From NCBI RefSeq assembly GCF_005876855.1, contig NZ_QLAE01000022.1:16141-80140 (forward strand): a DNA stretch of 64,000 nucleotides. The letters are read 5' to 3'. Below are positions 39,207-50,244 of this stretch, in pieces. How positions within the stretch are numbered: position 1 is the first letter of the stretch; each line of letters opens with the position of its first letter. The position numbers and the translations under genes are program-made. This stretch comes from Stutzerimonas nosocomialis (GTDB taxonomy: Bacteria; Pseudomonadota; Gammaproteobacteria; Pseudomonadales; Pseudomonadaceae). A model generated the notes under the pieces. That model was given only the letters and a program-made list of their open reading frames with translations, had not been told where the DNA came from and did not search any database.

Positions 39207-41111
39207 ATGATCACCACCCTGCTGATCGCCAACCGCGGCGAGATCGCCTGCCGGATCATGCGTACCGCCCGCGCGCTGGGCATTCGCACCGTCGCCGTGC
39301 ACAGCGCCGTTGACCGCGACGCCCGCCACGTGCGCGAGGCCGACCTGGCCCATGACCTGGGCGGCGCCAAGCCGGCCGACAGTTATCTGCGCATCGACCG
39401 CCTGATCGAAGCGGCCAGGGCCTGCGGCGCCCAGGCGGTCCATCCCGGCTATGGCTTTCTCTCCGAGAACGCAGCCTTCGCCCGTGCCTGCGAAGAGGCC
39501 GGGCTGGTGTTCATCGGCCCGCCGGCGTCGGCCATCGAGGCGATGGGCAGCAAGTCCGCCGCCAAGGCGCTGATGGAGGCCGCCGGCGTGCCGCTGGTGC
39601 CGGGCTACCACGGCGAAGCCCAGGACCTGGACACCTTTCGCGAGGCCGCCGCCCGCATCGGCTATCCGGTGCTGCTCAAGGCGGCGGCCGGCGGTGGCGG
39701 CAAGGGCATGAAGGTGGCCGAGCGCGAAGCCGACCTCGCCGAAGCCCTGGCCTCGGCCCGGCGCGAGGCGCAATCCGCGTTCGGCGACGCGCGCATGCTG
39801 GTCGAGAAGTACGTGCTCAAGCCGCGCCACGTCGAGATCCAGGTGTTCGCCGACCGCCATGGCCGCTGCCTCTACCTGAACGAGCGCGACTGCTCGATCC
39901 AGCGCCGGCACCAGAAGGTCGTCGAGGAAGCGCCGGCGCCGGGACTTTCGCCCGCGCAGCGCAAGGCCATGGGCGAGGCCGCGGTCAAGGCGGCCCAGGC
40001 GATCGGCTATGTCGGTGCCGGCACCGTGGAGTTCCTGCTGGACGAGCGCGGCGAGTTCTTCTTCATGGAGATGAACACCCGCCTGCAGGTCGAGCATCCG
40101 GTCACCGAGGCGATCACAGGCCTCGACCTGGTGGCCTGGCAGATCCGCGTGGCGCGGGGCGAGCCGCTGCCCCTCGAGCAGTCGCAGGTTCGCCTCGACG
40201 GCCACGCCATCGAGGTGCGCCTGTACGCCGAGGACCCGGCCAACGATTTCCTGCCGGCCACCGGCACCCTGCATCTGTACCGCGAGCCCGCGACGGGCCC
40301 GGGGCGTCGCGTCGACAGCGGCGTGCGCGAGGGCGACAGCGTGTCGCCGTTCTACGACCCCATGCTCGGCAAGCTGATCGCCTGGGGCGGGAACCGCGAA
40401 GAGGCGCGCCTCGCCCTGCTGGCGATGCTCGACGAGATGCGCGTGGGCGGCGTGCGCACCAACCTCGCCTTCCTGCGTCGGGTGCTGGCGCATCCGGCCT
40501 TCGCCGCCGCCGAACTGGATACCGGCTTCATCGCCCGCCACGAAGCCGAACTGCTGCCGCCGGCGAGCGAGCTGGCGCAGAGCTTCTGGCAGCGGGCCGC
40601 CGACGCCTGGGTGCAAAGCGAACCGCTCCGGGTCAGGGCGGACGACCCCCACTCGCCCTGGTCCCAGCCCAGCGGCCTGCGCCTCGGCCTGCCCGCCGAG
40701 GCCGACCTGCACCTGGCGTGTCAGGGCATCCGGCAAAGGGTACGGCCGCGCCTGGCGGGCCGCCTGGGCGCAGAACGTCCCGACCCGCACGGCCAGGCCA
40801 TCCGCCAGGACGACACCCTCTACCTGCCCTGGGAAGGCGAGCTGCACGCGGTCACCCGCGTCGACCCCATCGCCGACGCCGAAGCCAGCCACACCCACCC
40901 GGGCGGCCTGACCGCGCCCATGAACGGCAGCATCGTCCGGGTCCTGGTCGAAGCCGGCCAGCACGTCGAAGCCGGCACCGCACTGGTGGTGCTGGAGGCG
41001 ATGAAAATGGAACACAGCATCCGCGCCCCGGCTGCCGGAGTGGTCACGACAATCCACTGCGCCGAGGGCGACATGGTGGCCGAAGGGACTGCGCTGGTTG
41101 AGATCGAGTGA
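39207..41111 (+). CDS. liuD: methylcrotonoyl-CoA carboxylase biotin-containing (alpha) subunit
   Basis: A 634-residue protein with biotin carboxylase domain (about 1-450: LIANRGEIACRIMRTARALG; GGGGKGMKVAERE; FFFMEMNTRLQVEHPVTE) and a C-terminal biotinyl domain with the modified lysine in LEAMKMEHSI. It carboxylates biotin with ATP and bicarbonate for LiuB. It lies 99 bp after liuC in the operon. All catalytic motifs seem intact. Confidence 0.96.
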   Translation: MITTLLIANRGEIACRIMRTARALGIRTVAVHSAVDRDARHVREADLAHDLGGAKPADSYLRIDRLIEAARACGAQAVHPGYGFLSENAAFARACEEAGLVFIGPPASAIEAMGSKSAAKALMEAAGVPLVPGYHGEAQDLDTFREAAARIGYPVLLKAAAGGGGKGMKVAEREADLAEALASARREAQSAFGDARMLVEKYVLKPRHVEIQVFADRHGRCLYLNERDCSIQRRHQKVVEEAPAPGLSPAQRKAMGEAAVKAAQAIGYVGAGTVEFLLDERGEFFFMEMNTRLQVEHPVTEAITGLDLVAWQIRVARGEPLPLEQSQVRLDGHAIEVRLYAEDPANDFLPATGTLHLYREPATGPGRRVDSGVREGDSVSPFYDPMLGKLIAWGGNREEARLALLAMLDEMRVGGVRTNLAFLRRVLAHPAFAAAELDTGFIARHEAELLPPASELAQSFWQRAADAWVQSEPLRVRADDPHSPWSQPSGLRLGLPAEADLHLACQGIRQRVRPRLAGRLGAERPDPHGQAIRQDDTLYLPWEGELHAVTRVDPIADAEASHTHPGGLTAPMNGSIVRVLVEAGQHVEAGTALVVLEAMKMEHSIRAPAAGVVTTIHCAEGDMVAEGTALVEIE

Positions 41112-41324
41112 GCCCCGATGGAGCCTTTCGAGGGAACGGCCGGGGACTCCGAGTCTCGACCGCGAAGGGGCGCCGCCAGGCCCCCGGGCTATCCAAGCAA
41201 TGCATCAAGGCTCGCGGTCAAAACTCGCACGCCCGACCACAACAACAACCACAACCCGATCGACCACACATATGCGCCACCCCACGCCACCCTATAACCC
41301 CCTCGCCCCAGGGAGCAGCACCTG

Positions 41325-42233
41325 ATGACAGCCGATCTCCCACGCCAGGTACGCCTGGTCGACGTCGGGCCGCGCGATGGCCTGCAGAACGAGAGCCAGC
41401 CCATCGCGGTGGCCGACAAGGTTCGTCTGGTCGATGACCTGACCGACGCCGGCCTGCGCTACATCGAGGTCGGCAGTTTCGTCTCGCCCAAGTGGGTGCC
41501 GCAGATGGCCGGCAGCGCCGAGGTGTTTGCCGCGATCGCGCGCAGGCCGGGCGTCACCTATGCCGCGCTGACGCCCAATCTCAAGGGCTTCGAGGCCGCG
41601 TTGGCGGCGGGCGTGCGGGAGGTGGCGGTGTTCGCGGCGGCGTCCGAGGCCTTTTCGCAAAAGAACATCAACTGCTCCATCGCGGACAGCCTGGCGCGCT
41701 TCGCGCCGCTGATGGAAGCGGCAAGGGCCGAGGGCATCCGGGTGCGCGGCTACGTCTCCTGCGTGCTCGGCTGCCCCTATGAGGGCCAGATCGCCCCCGA
41801 ACAGGTCGCCTGGGTGGCGCGGGAGCTGCACCAGATGGGCTGCTACGAGGTTTCGCTCGGCGACACCATCGGCACCGGCACGGCCGGCAGCACCCGCCGG
41901 CTGATCGAGACGGTCGCCAGCGATGTTCCCCGCGAGCAGCTCGCCGGGCACTTCCACGACACCTATGGCCAGGCGCTGGCGAACATCCACGCCAGCCTGC
42001 TCGAAGGGATTTCGGTGTTCGACAGCTCCGTCGCCGGTCTCGGCGGATGCCCCTATGCCAAGGGCGCGACGGGCAACGTGGCGACCGAAGACGTGCTCTA
42101 CCTGCTCGACGGCATGGGTATCGAAACGGGCGTCTCGATGCCGAAGCTGGTCGCCGCCGGCCAGCGGATCAGCCGGGTGCTGGGGCGGGAAAACGGCTCG
42201 CGCGTCGCCCGTGCCCTGCTCGCCCGCGGTTGA
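41325..42233 (+). CDS. liuE: hydroxymethylglutaryl-CoA lyase
   Basis: A 302-residue HMG-CoA lyase: VRLVDVGPRDGLQNESQPIA at the N-terminus (catalytic Arg and Asp), the metal histidines in GHFHDTYGQALANIHASL, and the glycine-rich loop with the catalytic cysteine in GLGGCPYAKGATGNVATED. It cleaves HMG-CoA to acetyl-CoA and acetoacetate, the last step of the pathway. A 213-bp gap separates it from liuD and contains part of a REP-like palindrome (CGACCGCGAA at about 41156), so it may also have its own promoter. Confidence 0.95.
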   Translation: MTADLPRQVRLVDVGPRDGLQNESQPIAVADKVRLVDDLTDAGLRYIEVGSFVSPKWVPQMAGSAEVFAAIARRPGVTYAALTPNLKGFEAALAAGVREVAVFAAASEAFSQKNINCSIADSLARFAPLMEAARAEGIRVRGYVSCVLGCPYEGQIAPEQVAWVARELHQMGCYEVSLGDTIGTGTAGSTRRLIETVASDVPREQLAGHFHDTYGQALANIHASLLEGISVFDSSVAGLGGCPYAKGATGNVATEDVLYLLDGMGIETGVSMPKLVAAGQRISRVLGRENGSRVARALLARG

Positions 42234-42312: not shown

Positions 42313-42744
42313 CTAGCGCACCGGCGGCAGCCCCTCGACCCGGTCGCCGATGGCGATGCCGCGCTGCTCGAACCAGCCCTGATTGGCTTCCAGGGCAAAA
42401 CGCGAGGGGCGGCGCGCGCAGCGAATGTCCAGGCTCAGGGGCTGCAGGTCGAGGATATCGACGATGCGCCCCTGGTCGTCCATGAAGGCGGCGGACAACG
42501 GCAGCGGCGTGTTCTTCATCCACAGGCAATGCGTGCCGAGCTGCGGGAAGCGAAACAACATGCCCTGCTCCTGCGGCAGCTCGCGCCGGTGCATCAACCC
42601 CTGGCGGCGCTCATCCTCCGTGTCGGCGAATTCGGCCTGTATGACCGCCTCGCCGATGCGCAGCGGCAACAGCGACGCGGCCTGCAGCGACGGCGCGCAG
42701 GCCAGGGCCAGCCCCAGCAGAGACAGACGTAACCCATCCTTCAT
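42313..42744 (-). CDS. DUF192 family protein, exported
   Basis: A 143-residue protein from the ATG at 42744 (MKDGLRLSLLGLALACAPSL, a signal peptide with likely cleavage at LQA); a GTG nine bases earlier is possible. The DUF192 domain shows RRQGLMHRRELPQEQGMLFR and the MKNTPLPLSAAFMD core. Its function is unknown. It converges on liuE and is divergent from the AtoE transporter gene. Confidence 0.85.
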   Translation of the reverse strand: MKDGLRLSLLGLALACAPSLQAASLLPLRIGEAVIQAEFADTEDERRQGLMHRRELPQEQGMLFRFPQLGTHCLWMKNTPLPLSAAFMDDQGRIVDILDLQPLSLDIRCARRPSRFALEANQGWFEQRGIAIGDRVEGLPPVR

Positions 42745-42857
42745 CGAACCCACCTTCCATCAAGGAACGCCGCTCAAGCACGGCACTCATAAGCGAAGCG
42801 GCGACCCCCGCCGACGATGCGACCGATCGACAACAAGAACGACAGGAGGATCACACC

Positions 42858-44198
42858 ATGCTGAACAGGATAACCGGCGCGAGCGTGTACCTGGTGCAAC
42901 GCTTCCTGCCTTCCCCCTTCGTCTTCGCGCTGCTGCTGAGCTTCATCGTGCTCGTCGCGAGCATGCTCAGCACCGGCCAGGGCCTGCCGGCGATGGCCAC
43001 GCACTGGGGCAACGGCTTCTGGAACCTGCTCTCCTTCACCATGCAGATGGCGCTGATCCTGGTCACCGGACACGCCCTGGCGCGGGCGCCGATGGTCAAC
43101 CGCCTGCTCGACCGCCTGGCCCGGGTACCGCGAACGCCGGGCCAGGCGATCATCACCGTGACCCTGGTCGGGCTGGCCGGCGCCTGGATCAACTGGGGCT
43201 TCGGCCTGGTGATCGGCGCGGTGTTCGCCCGCGCGCTGGCGCGCCAGGTGCGCGGGGTCGACTACCCGCTGCTGGTGGCCGCGGCCTACTCGGGCTTCCT
43301 CATCTGGCACGGCGGTTTTTCCGGCTCCATCCCCCTGTCGCTGGCCAGCGGCGGCGCGGACCTGGAGCGCATGAGCGGCGGCGTGCTGACCGCGCCGATC
43401 AGCGTCGGCCAGACGCTCTTCGCACCGTTCAACCTGATCATCATCGCGGTGCTGGTGGTGGGCCTGCCGCTGCTCAACTGGGCGATGCAGCCCAAGCAGC
43501 CGACGGTGGCCGACCCGGCGCAACTGGCCGAACCCGAGCCCGCGGCGCTGCCCCGCGAGACCGCCACCCAGCGCCTGGACGACAGCCGCATCCTCGGTTT
43601 GCTGACCGTGGCGCTGGCGGCGATCTTCTTCGTCGGCTACTTCGCCAGCAGCGGCTTCGTGCTCAGCCTGAACATCGTGATCATGCTGTTCCTGTTCGCC
43701 GGCCTGGCGCTGCACGGTACCCCGGAGCGCTACACCCGCGCGGTGCAGGAGAGCATCGGCGGCATCAGCGGGATCGTCATCCAGTTCCCCTTCTACGCCG
43801 GCATCATGGGCATGATGGTGGGCGCCAACGCCGAGGGCATCTCCCTGGGCCGGCAGGTGACCGACACCTTTGTCGCCTGGTCGTCGACCGACAGCTTTCC
43901 GGTGCTGGCCTTTCTGAGCGCGGGGCTGGTGAACGTGTTCGTGCCCTCCGGCGGCGGGCAATGGGCGGTGCAGGGCCCGATCATGCTGCCGGCCGGTGCC
44001 GCGCTGGGCGTCGCGCCCGAGGTGACCGCCATGGCCATCGCCTGGGGCGATGCCTGGACCAACATGATCCAGCCGTTCTGGGCGCTGCCGCTGCTGGGTA
44101 TCGCCGGGCTCGGCGCGCGCGACATCATGGGCTATTGCCTGATCACCCTGGTGTTTTCCGGCCTGGTGATCGCCGGCGGCTTCTACTTTCTGGTATGA
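42858..44198 (+). CDS. atoE: AtoE-family short-chain fatty acid transporter
   Basis: A 446-residue protein with 11-12 hydrophobic helices. It has the AtoE family core: FLIWHGGFSGSIPLSLASGG, GLVNVFVPSGGGQWAVQGPI and IAWGDAWTNMIQPFWALPLL. AtoE is thought to import short-chain fatty acids such as butyrate or acetoacetate. A strong ribosome-binding site (CAGGAGGATCACACC) precedes the ATG. The sigma-54 activator gene follows after 29 bp, in the same direction. Confidence 0.9.
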   Translation: MLNRITGASVYLVQRFLPSPFVFALLLSFIVLVASMLSTGQGLPAMATHWGNGFWNLLSFTMQMALILVTGHALARAPMVNRLLDRLARVPRTPGQAIITVTLVGLAGAWINWGFGLVIGAVFARALARQVRGVDYPLLVAAAYSGFLIWHGGFSGSIPLSLASGGADLERMSGGVLTAPISVGQTLFAPFNLIIIAVLVVGLPLLNWAMQPKQPTVADPAQLAEPEPAALPRETATQRLDDSRILGLLTVALAAIFFVGYFASSGFVLSLNIVIMLFLFAGLALHGTPERYTRAVQESIGGISGIVIQFPFYAGIMGMMVGANAEGISLGRQVTDTFVAWSSTDSFPVLAFLSAGLVNVFVPSGGGQWAVQGPIMLPAGAALGVAPEVTAMAIAWGDAWTNMIQPFWALPLLGIAGLGARDIMGYCLITLVFSGLVIAGGFYFLV

Positions 44199-44227
44199 AG
44201 CCCTGCTCCGACGACCAGAGGACCGCC

Positions 44228-45694
<1,467 letters not shown>

Positions 45695-45751
45695 GAGACA
45701 GCCTCAAAGGTGCTGTTCATGCTGGTTCCGGCTGAAAATTCCTGCACCCTT

Positions 45752-45767
45752 GTCTCAAGAAAGAGAC
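45752..45767. promoter_or_regulatory. activator site 3, GTCTC-N6-GAGAC
   Basis: The third copy lies 65 bp upstream of the -24/-12 promoter at 45832. With sites 1 and 2 it forms an upstream activating sequence of the kind used by sigma-54 activators. Confidence 0.7.
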
Positions 45768-45831
45768 AAACGCCCTGACACACCACCTCAAGGACACATA
45801 AAAAACCAGTTAAATCAATGACTTGTGTTTC

Positions 45832-45847
45832 TGGCACAGAACTCGCT
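45832..45847 (+). promoter_or_regulatory. sigma-54 (-24/-12) promoter TGGCACAGAACTCGCT
   Basis: The GG and GC dinucleotides are ten bases apart and the -24 part TGGCAC is consensus; the -12 part is TCGCT instead of TTGCT. It lies 112 bp before the GntP-family permease gene and downstream of three activator sites, which is the expected arrangement. Confidence 0.75.
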
Positions 45848-45959
45848 ATGGCTTCCGAGCGGGCCAACCGCATCCGAAAACAACAACAAGATCAGCTGCG
45901 ACGACCTGCTGCCGGTTCACCGGCGCAGCCATCGATCGTCGCGGCGCCTGGAGACCATC

Positions 45960-47351
45960 ATGAGCGTTCTCATCGCCCTTGCCGCACTCGCCCTGCTGAT
46001 GCTGGCGGCCTACCGCGGCTACAGCGTCATCCTCTTCGCCCCCATCGCCGCCCTCGGGGCCGTGCTGCTCACCGATCCGTCGGCCGTCGCGCCGGCATTC
46101 ACCGGCATCTTCATGGACAAGATGGTCGGCTTCATCAAGCTCTACTTCCCGGTATTCCTGCTCGGCGCGGTGTTCGGCAAGCTCATCGAGCTGTCCGGCT
46201 TCTCCCGCTCCATCGTCGCCGCCGCGATCCGCCTGCTGGGCACCAGCCAGGCGATGCTGGTCATCGTGCTGGTCTGCGCGCTGCTCACCTACGGCGGCGT
46301 GTCGCTGTTCGTGGTGGTGTTCGCGGTCTACCCGTTCGCCGCCGAGATGTTCCGCCAGAGCGGCATCCCCAAACGACTGATCCCGGCGACCATCGCGCTC
46401 GGCGCCTTCACCTTCACCATGACCGCGCTGCCCGGCACGCCGCAGATCCAGAACATCATCCCCACCACCTTCTTCAACACCAACGCCTGGGCCGCGCCCT
46501 GGCTCGGGGTGATCGGCACCCTGTTCGTTTTCGCCTTCGGCATGCTCTACCTCAAGCGCCAGCTGGCCAAGGCGCAGCGCGCCGGCGAGACCTACGGCAC
46601 CGAGCTGCGCAACGAGCCGGAGACGCCGGACGACATCCGCCTGCCCAACCCCTGGCTCGCGCTTTCGCCGCTGCTGCTGGTGGGCGTCTCCAACCTCCTG
46701 CTGACCCGCTGGATTCCCGAGTGGTACGGCCCGAGCCACACGCTGCAGCTGGCCGGCATGGCGACGCCGCTGCAGACCAACGTCACCCAGCTGACCGCCA
46801 TCTGGGCGGTGCAGGCCGCGCTGCTGCTGGGCATCCTGCTGGTGCTGGTCGCCGCCTTCGGCACCGTGCGCAACAAGCTCGCCGAGGGCACCAGGACCGC
46901 CGTCGGCGGCTCGCTGCTGGCGGCGATGAACACGGCCTCCGAATACGGCTTCGGCGCGGTCATCGCCGCCCTCCCCGGCTTCGCCGTGGTGGCCGGCACG
47001 CTGGAGCGCATCCCCAATCCGCTGGTCAACGAGGCGATCACCGTCAACCTGCTGGCCGGCATCACCGGCTCGGCTTCGGGCGGCATGAGCATCGCGCTGG
47101 CAGCCATGTCCGACAGCTTCATCGCGGCCGCCAACGCCGCCAACATCCCGCTCGAGGTGCTGCACCGGGTCGCCTCCATGGCCAGCGGCGGCATGGACAC
47201 CCTGCCGCACAACGGCGCGGTGATCACCCTGCTGGCGGTGACCGGGCTCACCCACCGGGAGGCCTACAAGGACATCTTCGGCATCACGCTGATCGCCACC
47301 GTCGCGGTGTTCTTCGTGATCGGGGTCTATTACCTCACCGGCATCGTCTGA
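45960..47351 (+). CDS. GntP-family permease (probable 3-hydroxybutyrate permease)
   Basis: A 463-residue membrane protein with about 12 hydrophobic helices and GntP-family features (LLTYGGVSLFVVVFAVYPFA, LPGTPQIQNIIPTTFFNTNA, GITGSASGGMSIALAAMSDS, LPHNGAVITLLAVTGLTH). The family transports gluconate and other hydroxy acids; bdhA directly downstream (48 bp) and the sigma-54 promoter upstream make 3-hydroxybutyrate the likely substrate. The ATG at 45960 has CTGGAGACC upstream. Confidence 0.9.
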   Translation: MSVLIALAALALLMLAAYRGYSVILFAPIAALGAVLLTDPSAVAPAFTGIFMDKMVGFIKLYFPVFLLGAVFGKLIELSGFSRSIVAAAIRLLGTSQAMLVIVLVCALLTYGGVSLFVVVFAVYPFAAEMFRQSGIPKRLIPATIALGAFTFTMTALPGTPQIQNIIPTTFFNTNAWAAPWLGVIGTLFVFAFGMLYLKRQLAKAQRAGETYGTELRNEPETPDDIRLPNPWLALSPLLLVGVSNLLLTRWIPEWYGPSHTLQLAGMATPLQTNVTQLTAIWAVQAALLLGILLVLVAAFGTVRNKLAEGTRTAVGGSLLAAMNTASEYGFGAVIAALPGFAVVAGTLERIPNPLVNEAITVNLLAGITGSASGGMSIALAAMSDSFIAAANAANIPLEVLHRVASMASGGMDTLPHNGAVITLLAVTGLTHREAYKDIFGITLIATVAVFFVIGVYYLTGIV

Positions 47352-47399: not shown

Positions 47400-48170
47400 A
47401 TGAACCTCACGGGCAAGACCGCACTGGTCACCGGCTCCACCAGCGGCATCGGGCTGGGCATCGCGCTGAAGCTCGCCGAAGCGGGCGCCAACCTGGTGCT
47501 CAACGGCTTCGGCGACAGCCAGGCCGCCGTGGCACAGGTCGCGCAGCACGGCGGCAAGGTGATCCACCACCCGGCCGACGTGTCCCGCGCCGAGGACATC
47601 GAAGCGCTGTTCGAAGCCGCCGAGCGCACCTTCGGCACGGTGGACATCCTGGTCAACAACGCCGGCATCCAGCATGTCGCGCCGGTGGAGGCCTTCCCCG
47701 TCGAGCGCTGGGACCAGATCATCGCCATCAACCTGACCTCGGCCTTCCACACCACCCGCCTGGCGCTGCCGGGCATGCGCGCGCGCAACTGGGGACGGAT
47801 CGTCAACATCGCCTCGGCCCACGGCCTGGTGGCCTCGGCGAACAAGAGCGCCTACGTGGCGGCCAAGCACGGGCTGGTCGGCCTGACCAAATCCGTGGCC
47901 CTGGAAACCGCCACCACCGGCATCACCTGCAACGCCCTCTGCCCCGGCTGGGTGCTGACGCCGCTGGTGCAGCAGCAGATCGACAGCCGCGCCCAGGCCA
48001 GCGGCAATGCCGAACAGGCCCGTCACGACCTCCTGGCCGAAAAGCAGCCCTCGCTGGAATTCGTCGAACCCGCCCAACTGGGCGAACTGACGCTGTTCCT
48101 CTGCAGCGAGGCCGCAAGCCAGGTACGCGGCGCGGCCTGGAGCATGGACGGCGGCTGGACAGCGCAATGA
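47400..48170 (+). CDS. bdhA: 3-hydroxybutyrate dehydrogenase
   Basis: A 256-residue SDR. Cofactor motif TGSTSGIGLGIALKLAEAG, NNAG in VNNAGIQHVAPVEAFPVERW, catalytic Ser in NIASAHGLVASANKSAY and Tyr/Lys in SAYVAAKHGLVG. The GIQHV and AHGLVAS segments are characteristic of D-3-hydroxybutyrate dehydrogenase. It oxidises (R)-3-hydroxybutyrate to acetoacetate with NAD. It lies between the permease and acetoacetyl-CoA synthetase genes in one operon. Confidence 0.94.
   Translation: MNLTGKTALVTGSTSGIGLGIALKLAEAGANLVLNGFGDSQAAVAQVAQHGGKVIHHPADVSRAEDIEALFEAAERTFGTVDILVNNAGIQHVAPVEAFPVERWDQIIAINLTSAFHTTRLALPGMRARNWGRIVNIASAHGLVASANKSAYVAAKHGLVGLTKSVALETATTGITCNALCPGWVLTPLVQQQIDSRAQASGNAEQARHDLLAEKQPSLEFVEPAQLGELTLFLCSEAASQVRGAAWSMDGGWTAQ

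Positions 48171-48288: not shown

Positions 48289-50244
<1,956 letters not shown>

Follow-up and report, generated by a model that had tools for sequence, protein, structure and literature searches.

A candidate HbcR-activated enhancer and sigma-54 promoter ahead of the 3-hydroxybutyrate operon in Stutzerimonas and other Pseudomonadaceae

In Pseudomonas aeruginosa, PA2005 (HbcR) and RpoN have been reported to regulate (R)-3-hydroxybutyrate metabolism (Lundgren et al., 2015). HbcR, a sigma-54 activator with a PAS domain, switches on (R)-3-hydroxybutyrate catabolism, a pathway to which bdhA belongs, and is also named in P. fluorescens, where it is described as being activated by (R)-3-hydroxybutyrate (PMC10482368). 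From an architectural perspective, a close parallel is GcsR of P. aeruginosa, also a sigma-54 activator, which was shown by EMSA to bind, ahead of an RpoN site, three sites of 18 bp whose arms are palindromic; it differs in its site (TGTAACG-N4-CGTTCCG), in its ligand, glycine, and in being TyrR-like (PMC4894688). As for DNA recognition, the reference is Escherichia coli Fis, which shares the Fis-type HTH and in which Arg85 touches a G close to the outer end of the 15-bp binding site; unlike what is proposed below, Fis reads mostly DNA shape, and its residue aligned to the Lys/Arg position of HbcR contacts phosphates (PMC4784862; PMC3711457). The regulator and the pathway, including the link to RpoN, are already known; that the regulator and its RpoN link had been described before was missed by a sequence-only reading of the DNA analysed here. 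In the literature searched, the full text of Lundgren et al. (2015) lying outside it, no HbcR binding motif, IHF-type site, helix/arm covariation or enhancer swap was seen. These four elements are what is added here to a switch made of a known regulator and a known pathway.

The locus under study lies in the window, that is, the whole stretch of 64,000 nucleotides that was analysed. As in the HbcR system of P. aeruginosa, the activator is of the PAS-containing sigma-54 kind, and here it neighbours a permease gene and bdhA; the locus differs in belonging to a Stutzerimonas-type genome, in having an acetoacetate--CoA ligase gene after bdhA, and in the dyads and the IHF-type site defined here. 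The following genes are all on the + strand. A short-chain fatty acid transporter of the AtoE type (42858..44198; PF02667, 524.5 bits) is encoded by the gene preceding the activator. The activator itself (44228..45694; 488 aa) is an HbcR-type sigma-54 enhancer-binding protein with the Pfam domains PAS, Sigma54_activat, AAA_lid_14 and HTH_8, and its translation has a GAFTGA motif in the AAA domain, in agreement with the Fis-type sigma-54 activator with GAFTGA named in the sequence-only reading. The operon begins with a permease of 463 aa (45960..47351), whose orthologues, at least 78% identical, are linked to bdhA; Pfam and NCBIfam matches at E 0.001 are absent, though the protein is strongly conserved among the orthologues fetched. 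The most likely start of this gene is 45960, about 100 nt past the predicted transcription start, since the longer ORF from 45825 would begin ahead of the predicted transcript. There follow bdhA, for 3-hydroxybutyrate dehydrogenase (47400..48170; TIGR01963 and NF009093 above cut-off), and the gene for acetoacetate--CoA ligase (48289..50244; TIGR01217, 915 bits with a cut-off of 520.9). The activator gene is linked to the permease gene and bdhA in the window, and the gene order is shared with other genera; on the basis of this synteny and of 67-80% identical family relatives, some of them from named Pseudomonas species, the adjacent activator fits HbcR/PA2005. Just upstream, a biotin-carboxylase-like protein (named by sequence alone) and hydroxymethylglutaryl-CoA lyase are encoded at 39207-42233, so that acetoacetate formation adjoins its activation.

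Three perfect copies of GTCTC-N6-GAGAC, with zero mismatches and with spacers that are all different, are found at 45666-45681, 45684-45699 and 45752-45767, followed by a -24/-12 element, exactly where the sequence-only reading had placed them. Dyad 1 (GTCTCATTACAGAGAC, 45666..45681), with its centre at about -184.5 from the predicted start, lies within the 3' end of the activator gene; dyad 2 (GTCTCCAATAAGAGAC, 45684..45699), centred at about -166.5, includes the stop codon of the activator gene; dyad 3 (GTCTCAAGAAAGAGAC, 45752..45767), the proximal one, is centred at about -98.5 and begins 80 bp before the T of TGG, none of the three being assigned to a strand. Because this stop codon falls within dyad 2, the final sense codons of the activator gene lie in dyad 1 and in part of dyad 2. 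The C-terminal tail ASLITETGLQ (45660-45694) is mostly encoded by dyads 1 and 2, and most of the orthologues listed stop earlier than the window activator.

The search of the whole genome (4,755,882 bases) that had been proposed for this motif returned three exact copies only, all within 102 bp in this control region. Since three copies of the reversed control pattern are likewise present in this genome, it is the clustering of the exact dyads that is extraordinary, while their total count is ordinary. Looser patterns gave 62 one-mismatch dyads versus 48 for the reversed control, and 17 matches to GTCT-N8-AGAC versus 15. Within the window, a scan allowing up to 2 mismatches returned 14 dyad matches, fewer than the shuffle mean of 33, and the 11 besides the exact three all had 2 mismatches. 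A second genomic target was not found among the places looked at, and the two one-mismatch places picked from the matches listed have no good -24/-12 nearby. One such dyad, elsewhere in the genome (ATCTCAAGAAAGAGAC; L322, 1973-1988), has the same spacer as dyad 3, again with no good -24/-12 promoter near it.

The promoter element TGGCACAGAACTCGCT (45832..45847, + strand) has the GG-N10-GC pattern and a TGGCAC core; its earlier assignment is borne out by a comparable element in 188 of the 191 control regions described below. From the -12 position, transcription is predicted to start at 45858 (+ strand), 12 bases after the C of GC, and the promoter would be dependent on RpoN. Between the proximal dyad and the promoter there is an IHF-type site (AATCAATGACTTG, 45813..45825, + strand), overlooked in the sequence-only reading, that agrees at 9/9 positions with the IHF consensus WATCAANNNNTTR used for scoring. 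Sites with at least 8/9 positions are present in 169 of 188 regions versus 7.8% of shuffles, and in 153 regions they stand at the same offset. With a consensus site between enhancer and promoter, the element has the arrangement of an IHF-assisted sigma-54 promoter, the binding of IHF itself being predicted.

Activator orthologues (E <=1e-170) are present in 189 of 398 genomes of the family Pseudomonadaceae, and a search of the order at E 1e-160 matched 8 of 293 genomes, all 8 of them Pseudomonadaceae and none outside the family. In an open count of palindromes over 137 control regions, GTCTC-N6-GAGAC was the commonest gapped palindrome with arms of 5 letters (84 regions, 8 genera), and the runner-up (21/137) was the same dyad in another register; the dyads are thus conserved upstream of orthologous permease genes, as the sequence-only interpretation requires. 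Named genomes were then added to this set, giving 211 control regions, 191 of them distinct by sequence. Of the 80 named loci, six were omitted for want of an HbcR orthologue at the locus, and L275 was included without a helix; in the helix read-out, four loci (genomes G070, G259 and G138) had no helix match, G070 coming back helix-less in the control-region set. Three of the 191 regions, with a weak promoter or site and no readable -24/-12, were excluded, so that 188 were scored. Counts are over sequence-distinct regions, with kinship unweighted except in the column profile of the IHF analysis, and sites were scored on the six other, neutral letters only, arm position 4 being excluded.

Every one of the 188 regions whose promoter could be read has a proximal match with at least 5/6 neutral letters, and 161 have one with 6/6. 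Counted from the T of TGG, this site lies at -77 to -81 in 165 regions and at -66 to -71 in the other 23, about one helical turn closer to the promoter, while pairs of distal sites are mostly 18-21 bp apart. While 39 regions have three full 6/6 sites, 109 have two, 33 have a single one and 7 lack any, so that three full dyads, as in the window, are not the rule. Altogether, 368 full sites lie upstream of the promoters versus 1 in 40,743 downstream control positions; a chance origin of the dyads is ruled out by this control scan together with the genome-wide count and the conservation in relatives. The dyads sit about 80-200 bp upstream of the promoter, with the position and conservation expected of upstream activating sequences, for which they are candidates. 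Where an OprD-like porin gene (named by sequence alone) stands ahead of the permease, the dyads are upstream of the porin (5 loci read). They also stand upstream of the permease in G003 and G014, two genomes that have the activator gene at another place. A helical phasing of the distal sites is not claimed, the best vector length being 0.48 at 11 bp with 8 periods tried and relatedness unweighted.

From these elements we consider it highly probable that the region is an HbcR-activated enhancer coupled to the sigma-54 promoter of the 3-hydroxybutyrate operon, working by the full mechanism that follows. HbcR-type dimers would use their Fis-type HTH to bind each of the GTCTC-N6-GAGAC dyads, the activator sites being the distal pair, 18 bp apart, and the proximal site closer to the promoter, and the DNA would be bent by IHF at 45813-45825. 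In the presence of (R)-3-hydroxybutyrate, the probable inducer, the activator ring would assemble, and its GAFTGA loop would touch sigma-54 RNA polymerase at 45832-45847, with ATP used for promoter opening. The permease, bdhA and acetoacetate--CoA ligase genes would then be transcribed, presumably as a single transcript over the three genes.

The letters of the dyads vary together with the recognition helix of the activator. In the window this helix segment is LGLGRSTLYKKM (45596..45631, + strand), in which Lys466 (codon 45623-45625), replaced by Arg in other lineages, aligns to Lys90 of Fis in a PDB sequence search, the number being obtained by counting along the alignment. Most orthologues have the helix RSTLYKK, while RSTLYR is found in G003, G014, G064, four Azotobacter-type genomes (g17) and a g15 group, and the dyads of the RSTLYR genomes are mostly NTCCC-N6-GGGAN, a variant code absent from the sequence-only reading. 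In a locus of A. beijerinckii (L282), helix and sites match those of the g17 Azotobacter-type genomes. Over 186 regions (173 Lys and 13 Arg), arm position 4 of the proximal half-sites is 323 T, 22 C and 1 A with Lys, and 25 C and 1 T with Arg; in the half-sites of full distal sites it is 363 T and 15 C with Lys, and 27 C and 5 T with Arg. The view that the dyad is the motif of this very activator is supported by the covariation, although the independent events may be few.

In Fis, Lys90 touches phosphates and not bases (PMC3711457); base contacts in that protein can come from Asn84, at position 4, and from Arg85, at the outer G (PMC4784862). For this reason, it is a matter of inference which HbcR residue reads arm position 4. 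An explanation to be taken seriously, and to which we give somewhat less than even weight, is that the match of Lys/Arg with T/C reflects shared ancestry, a few lineages carrying both with no direct contact. It would agree with the backbone contact made by Fis Lys90 (PMC3711457) and with the fact that other HTH columns correlate too, the next-best being Glu at column 39 (phi 0.56); however, among 43 HTH columns the Lys/Arg one predicts T/C at arm position 4 best (phi 0.69, 186 genomes), and at no other position is there a residue that all 13 Arg rows share and that is uncommon among the Lys rows. The trees also point both ways. On the activator tree (130 activators with the HTH removed, 14 of 144 loci having no full activator and being left out), 2 Lys/Arg changes are needed and a single Arg clade is not rejected, the Arg-together tree being slightly better (AU p 0.53); this tree was consequently set aside as proof of many independent changes, and since one Arg origin is not rejected on it, the covariation may rest on few events. 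On the permease tree (55 rows), by contrast, 4 changes are needed and one Arg clade is disfavoured (AU p 0.026, for a group named post hoc). One Arg row of this tree is also oddly placed: the permease of the Azotobacter-type locus L074 (G096) falls, on a long branch, among those of Stutzerimonas, while its activator helix and sites are Azotobacter-like.

Within the genus Stutzerimonas, the dyads vary also with the regulator that is present. HbcR orthologues (78-100% identity) are found in 5 of 56 genomes, the window genome included, while the operon permease is found at 86-100% identity in 28 of the 56, a 29th match reaching only 44%. The five HbcR genomes have GTCTC- or TCCC-type dyads, two of them also with one site fitting a looser GTCC-N8-GGAC; of the 23 operon genomes without HbcR, 22 have a nearly identical -24/-12 that is preceded, at a distance of 55-104 bp, by between one and three GTCC-N8-GGAC sites, and the other one (G004) was unreadable, its locus being incomplete. 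An HbcR paralogue with 52% identity and the recognition helix SRASLYSK is present in full length in 20 of these 23 genomes and in part in 2, and the full-length form was not found in G019. G003 and G014 have both HbcR and the paralogue. From 42 full-length matches, 25 paralogue loci were fetched, of which 24 were readable (L033 being without helix); in 16 of them the paralogue gene is closely followed by a -24/-12 that has, 146-168 bp ahead of it, a pair of GTCC-N8-GGAC sites spaced 20 bp from each other, and in 8 no promoter with GTCC dyads was found within about 1.5 kb. These 24 loci exclude the smaller clade described next, represented by G015 (no helix match), G007 and G044. In the paralogue locus L292 (4700-9131), the paralogue adjoins DoxX-like, esterase-like and porin-like genes, all named by sequence alone, and there are two -24/-12 promoters with GTCC dyads upstream of both. 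On the permease tree, for which 15 of the 22 GTCC-dyad genomes were used, these 15 form two clades, and a single clade is rejected (p 5e-5, post hoc).

The simplest reading of these data is that the paralogue took over the operon twice by enhancer replacement, although the whole operon may instead have been transferred. It could also be supposed that the GTCC-N8-GGAC sites at the permease in Stutzerimonas genomes without HbcR belong to an activator other than the 52% paralogue, which appears to us doubtful though not far-fetched. The paralogue gene sits elsewhere in the genome than the operon, the 8 loci without a GTCC promoter and the lack of a full-length paralogue in G019 would suit another activator, and the support from paralogue neighbourhoods does not extend to the second GTCC group. 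Set against this, the same dyad pair stands upstream of the adjoining -24/-12 promoter in two thirds of the readable paralogue loci (16/24), and nearly all HbcR-less operon genomes have a match to the paralogue, full-length or partial (20 and 2 of 23). If the takeover by the paralogue is accepted together with a role of the helix Lys/Arg in setting the reading of GTCTC versus GTCCC, the same operon and promoter would have passed at least twice to the paralogue in Stutzerimonas by exchange of the enhancers alone, from GTCTC to GTCC-N8-GGAC, and the family would offer a natural series of enhancer-code switches, a combined claim for and against which we find the balance to be even.

Two further explanations concern the dyads of the window themselves. 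That they bind a different regulator, either a repressor or a second activator, HbcR using other sites, is very improbable: repressor operators are also typically symmetric 16-bp dyads, but the dyad letters track the HbcR recognition helix, HbcR-less genomes carry another dyad, and a distance of about 80-200 bp to a downstream -24/-12 fits enhancers more readily than operators. That they are RNA hairpins ending the activator mRNA, as terminator or attenuator, and not protein sites can scarcely be maintained, since, in spite of the location of dyads 1 and 2 at the activator 3' end, there are 0 terminator-like sites in 42600-46000 versus 1.8 in shuffles, the distance from proximal dyad to promoter is nearly constant, and the dyads stay with the operon promoter also in G003 and G014, upstream of a permease whose activator gene is elsewhere.

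On the preferred reading, that of an HbcR-activated enhancer, the region very probably lets one regulator turn on the use of 3-hydroxybutyrate. A known metabolic activator thereby receives a concrete candidate binding motif and, because this motif comes with an IHF-type site and a fixed geometry, the complete sigma-54 switch becomes directly testable. Moreover, the covariation of helix and arm provides a clear prediction, at the level of a single residue, of the choice of enhancer by these activators. Regulator change in the same activator family is also pursued by laboratory rewiring studies (PMC10482368). The pattern observed in Stutzerimonas suggests a route by which an operon may change its regulator while its promoter is kept, a question that belongs to regulatory evolution.
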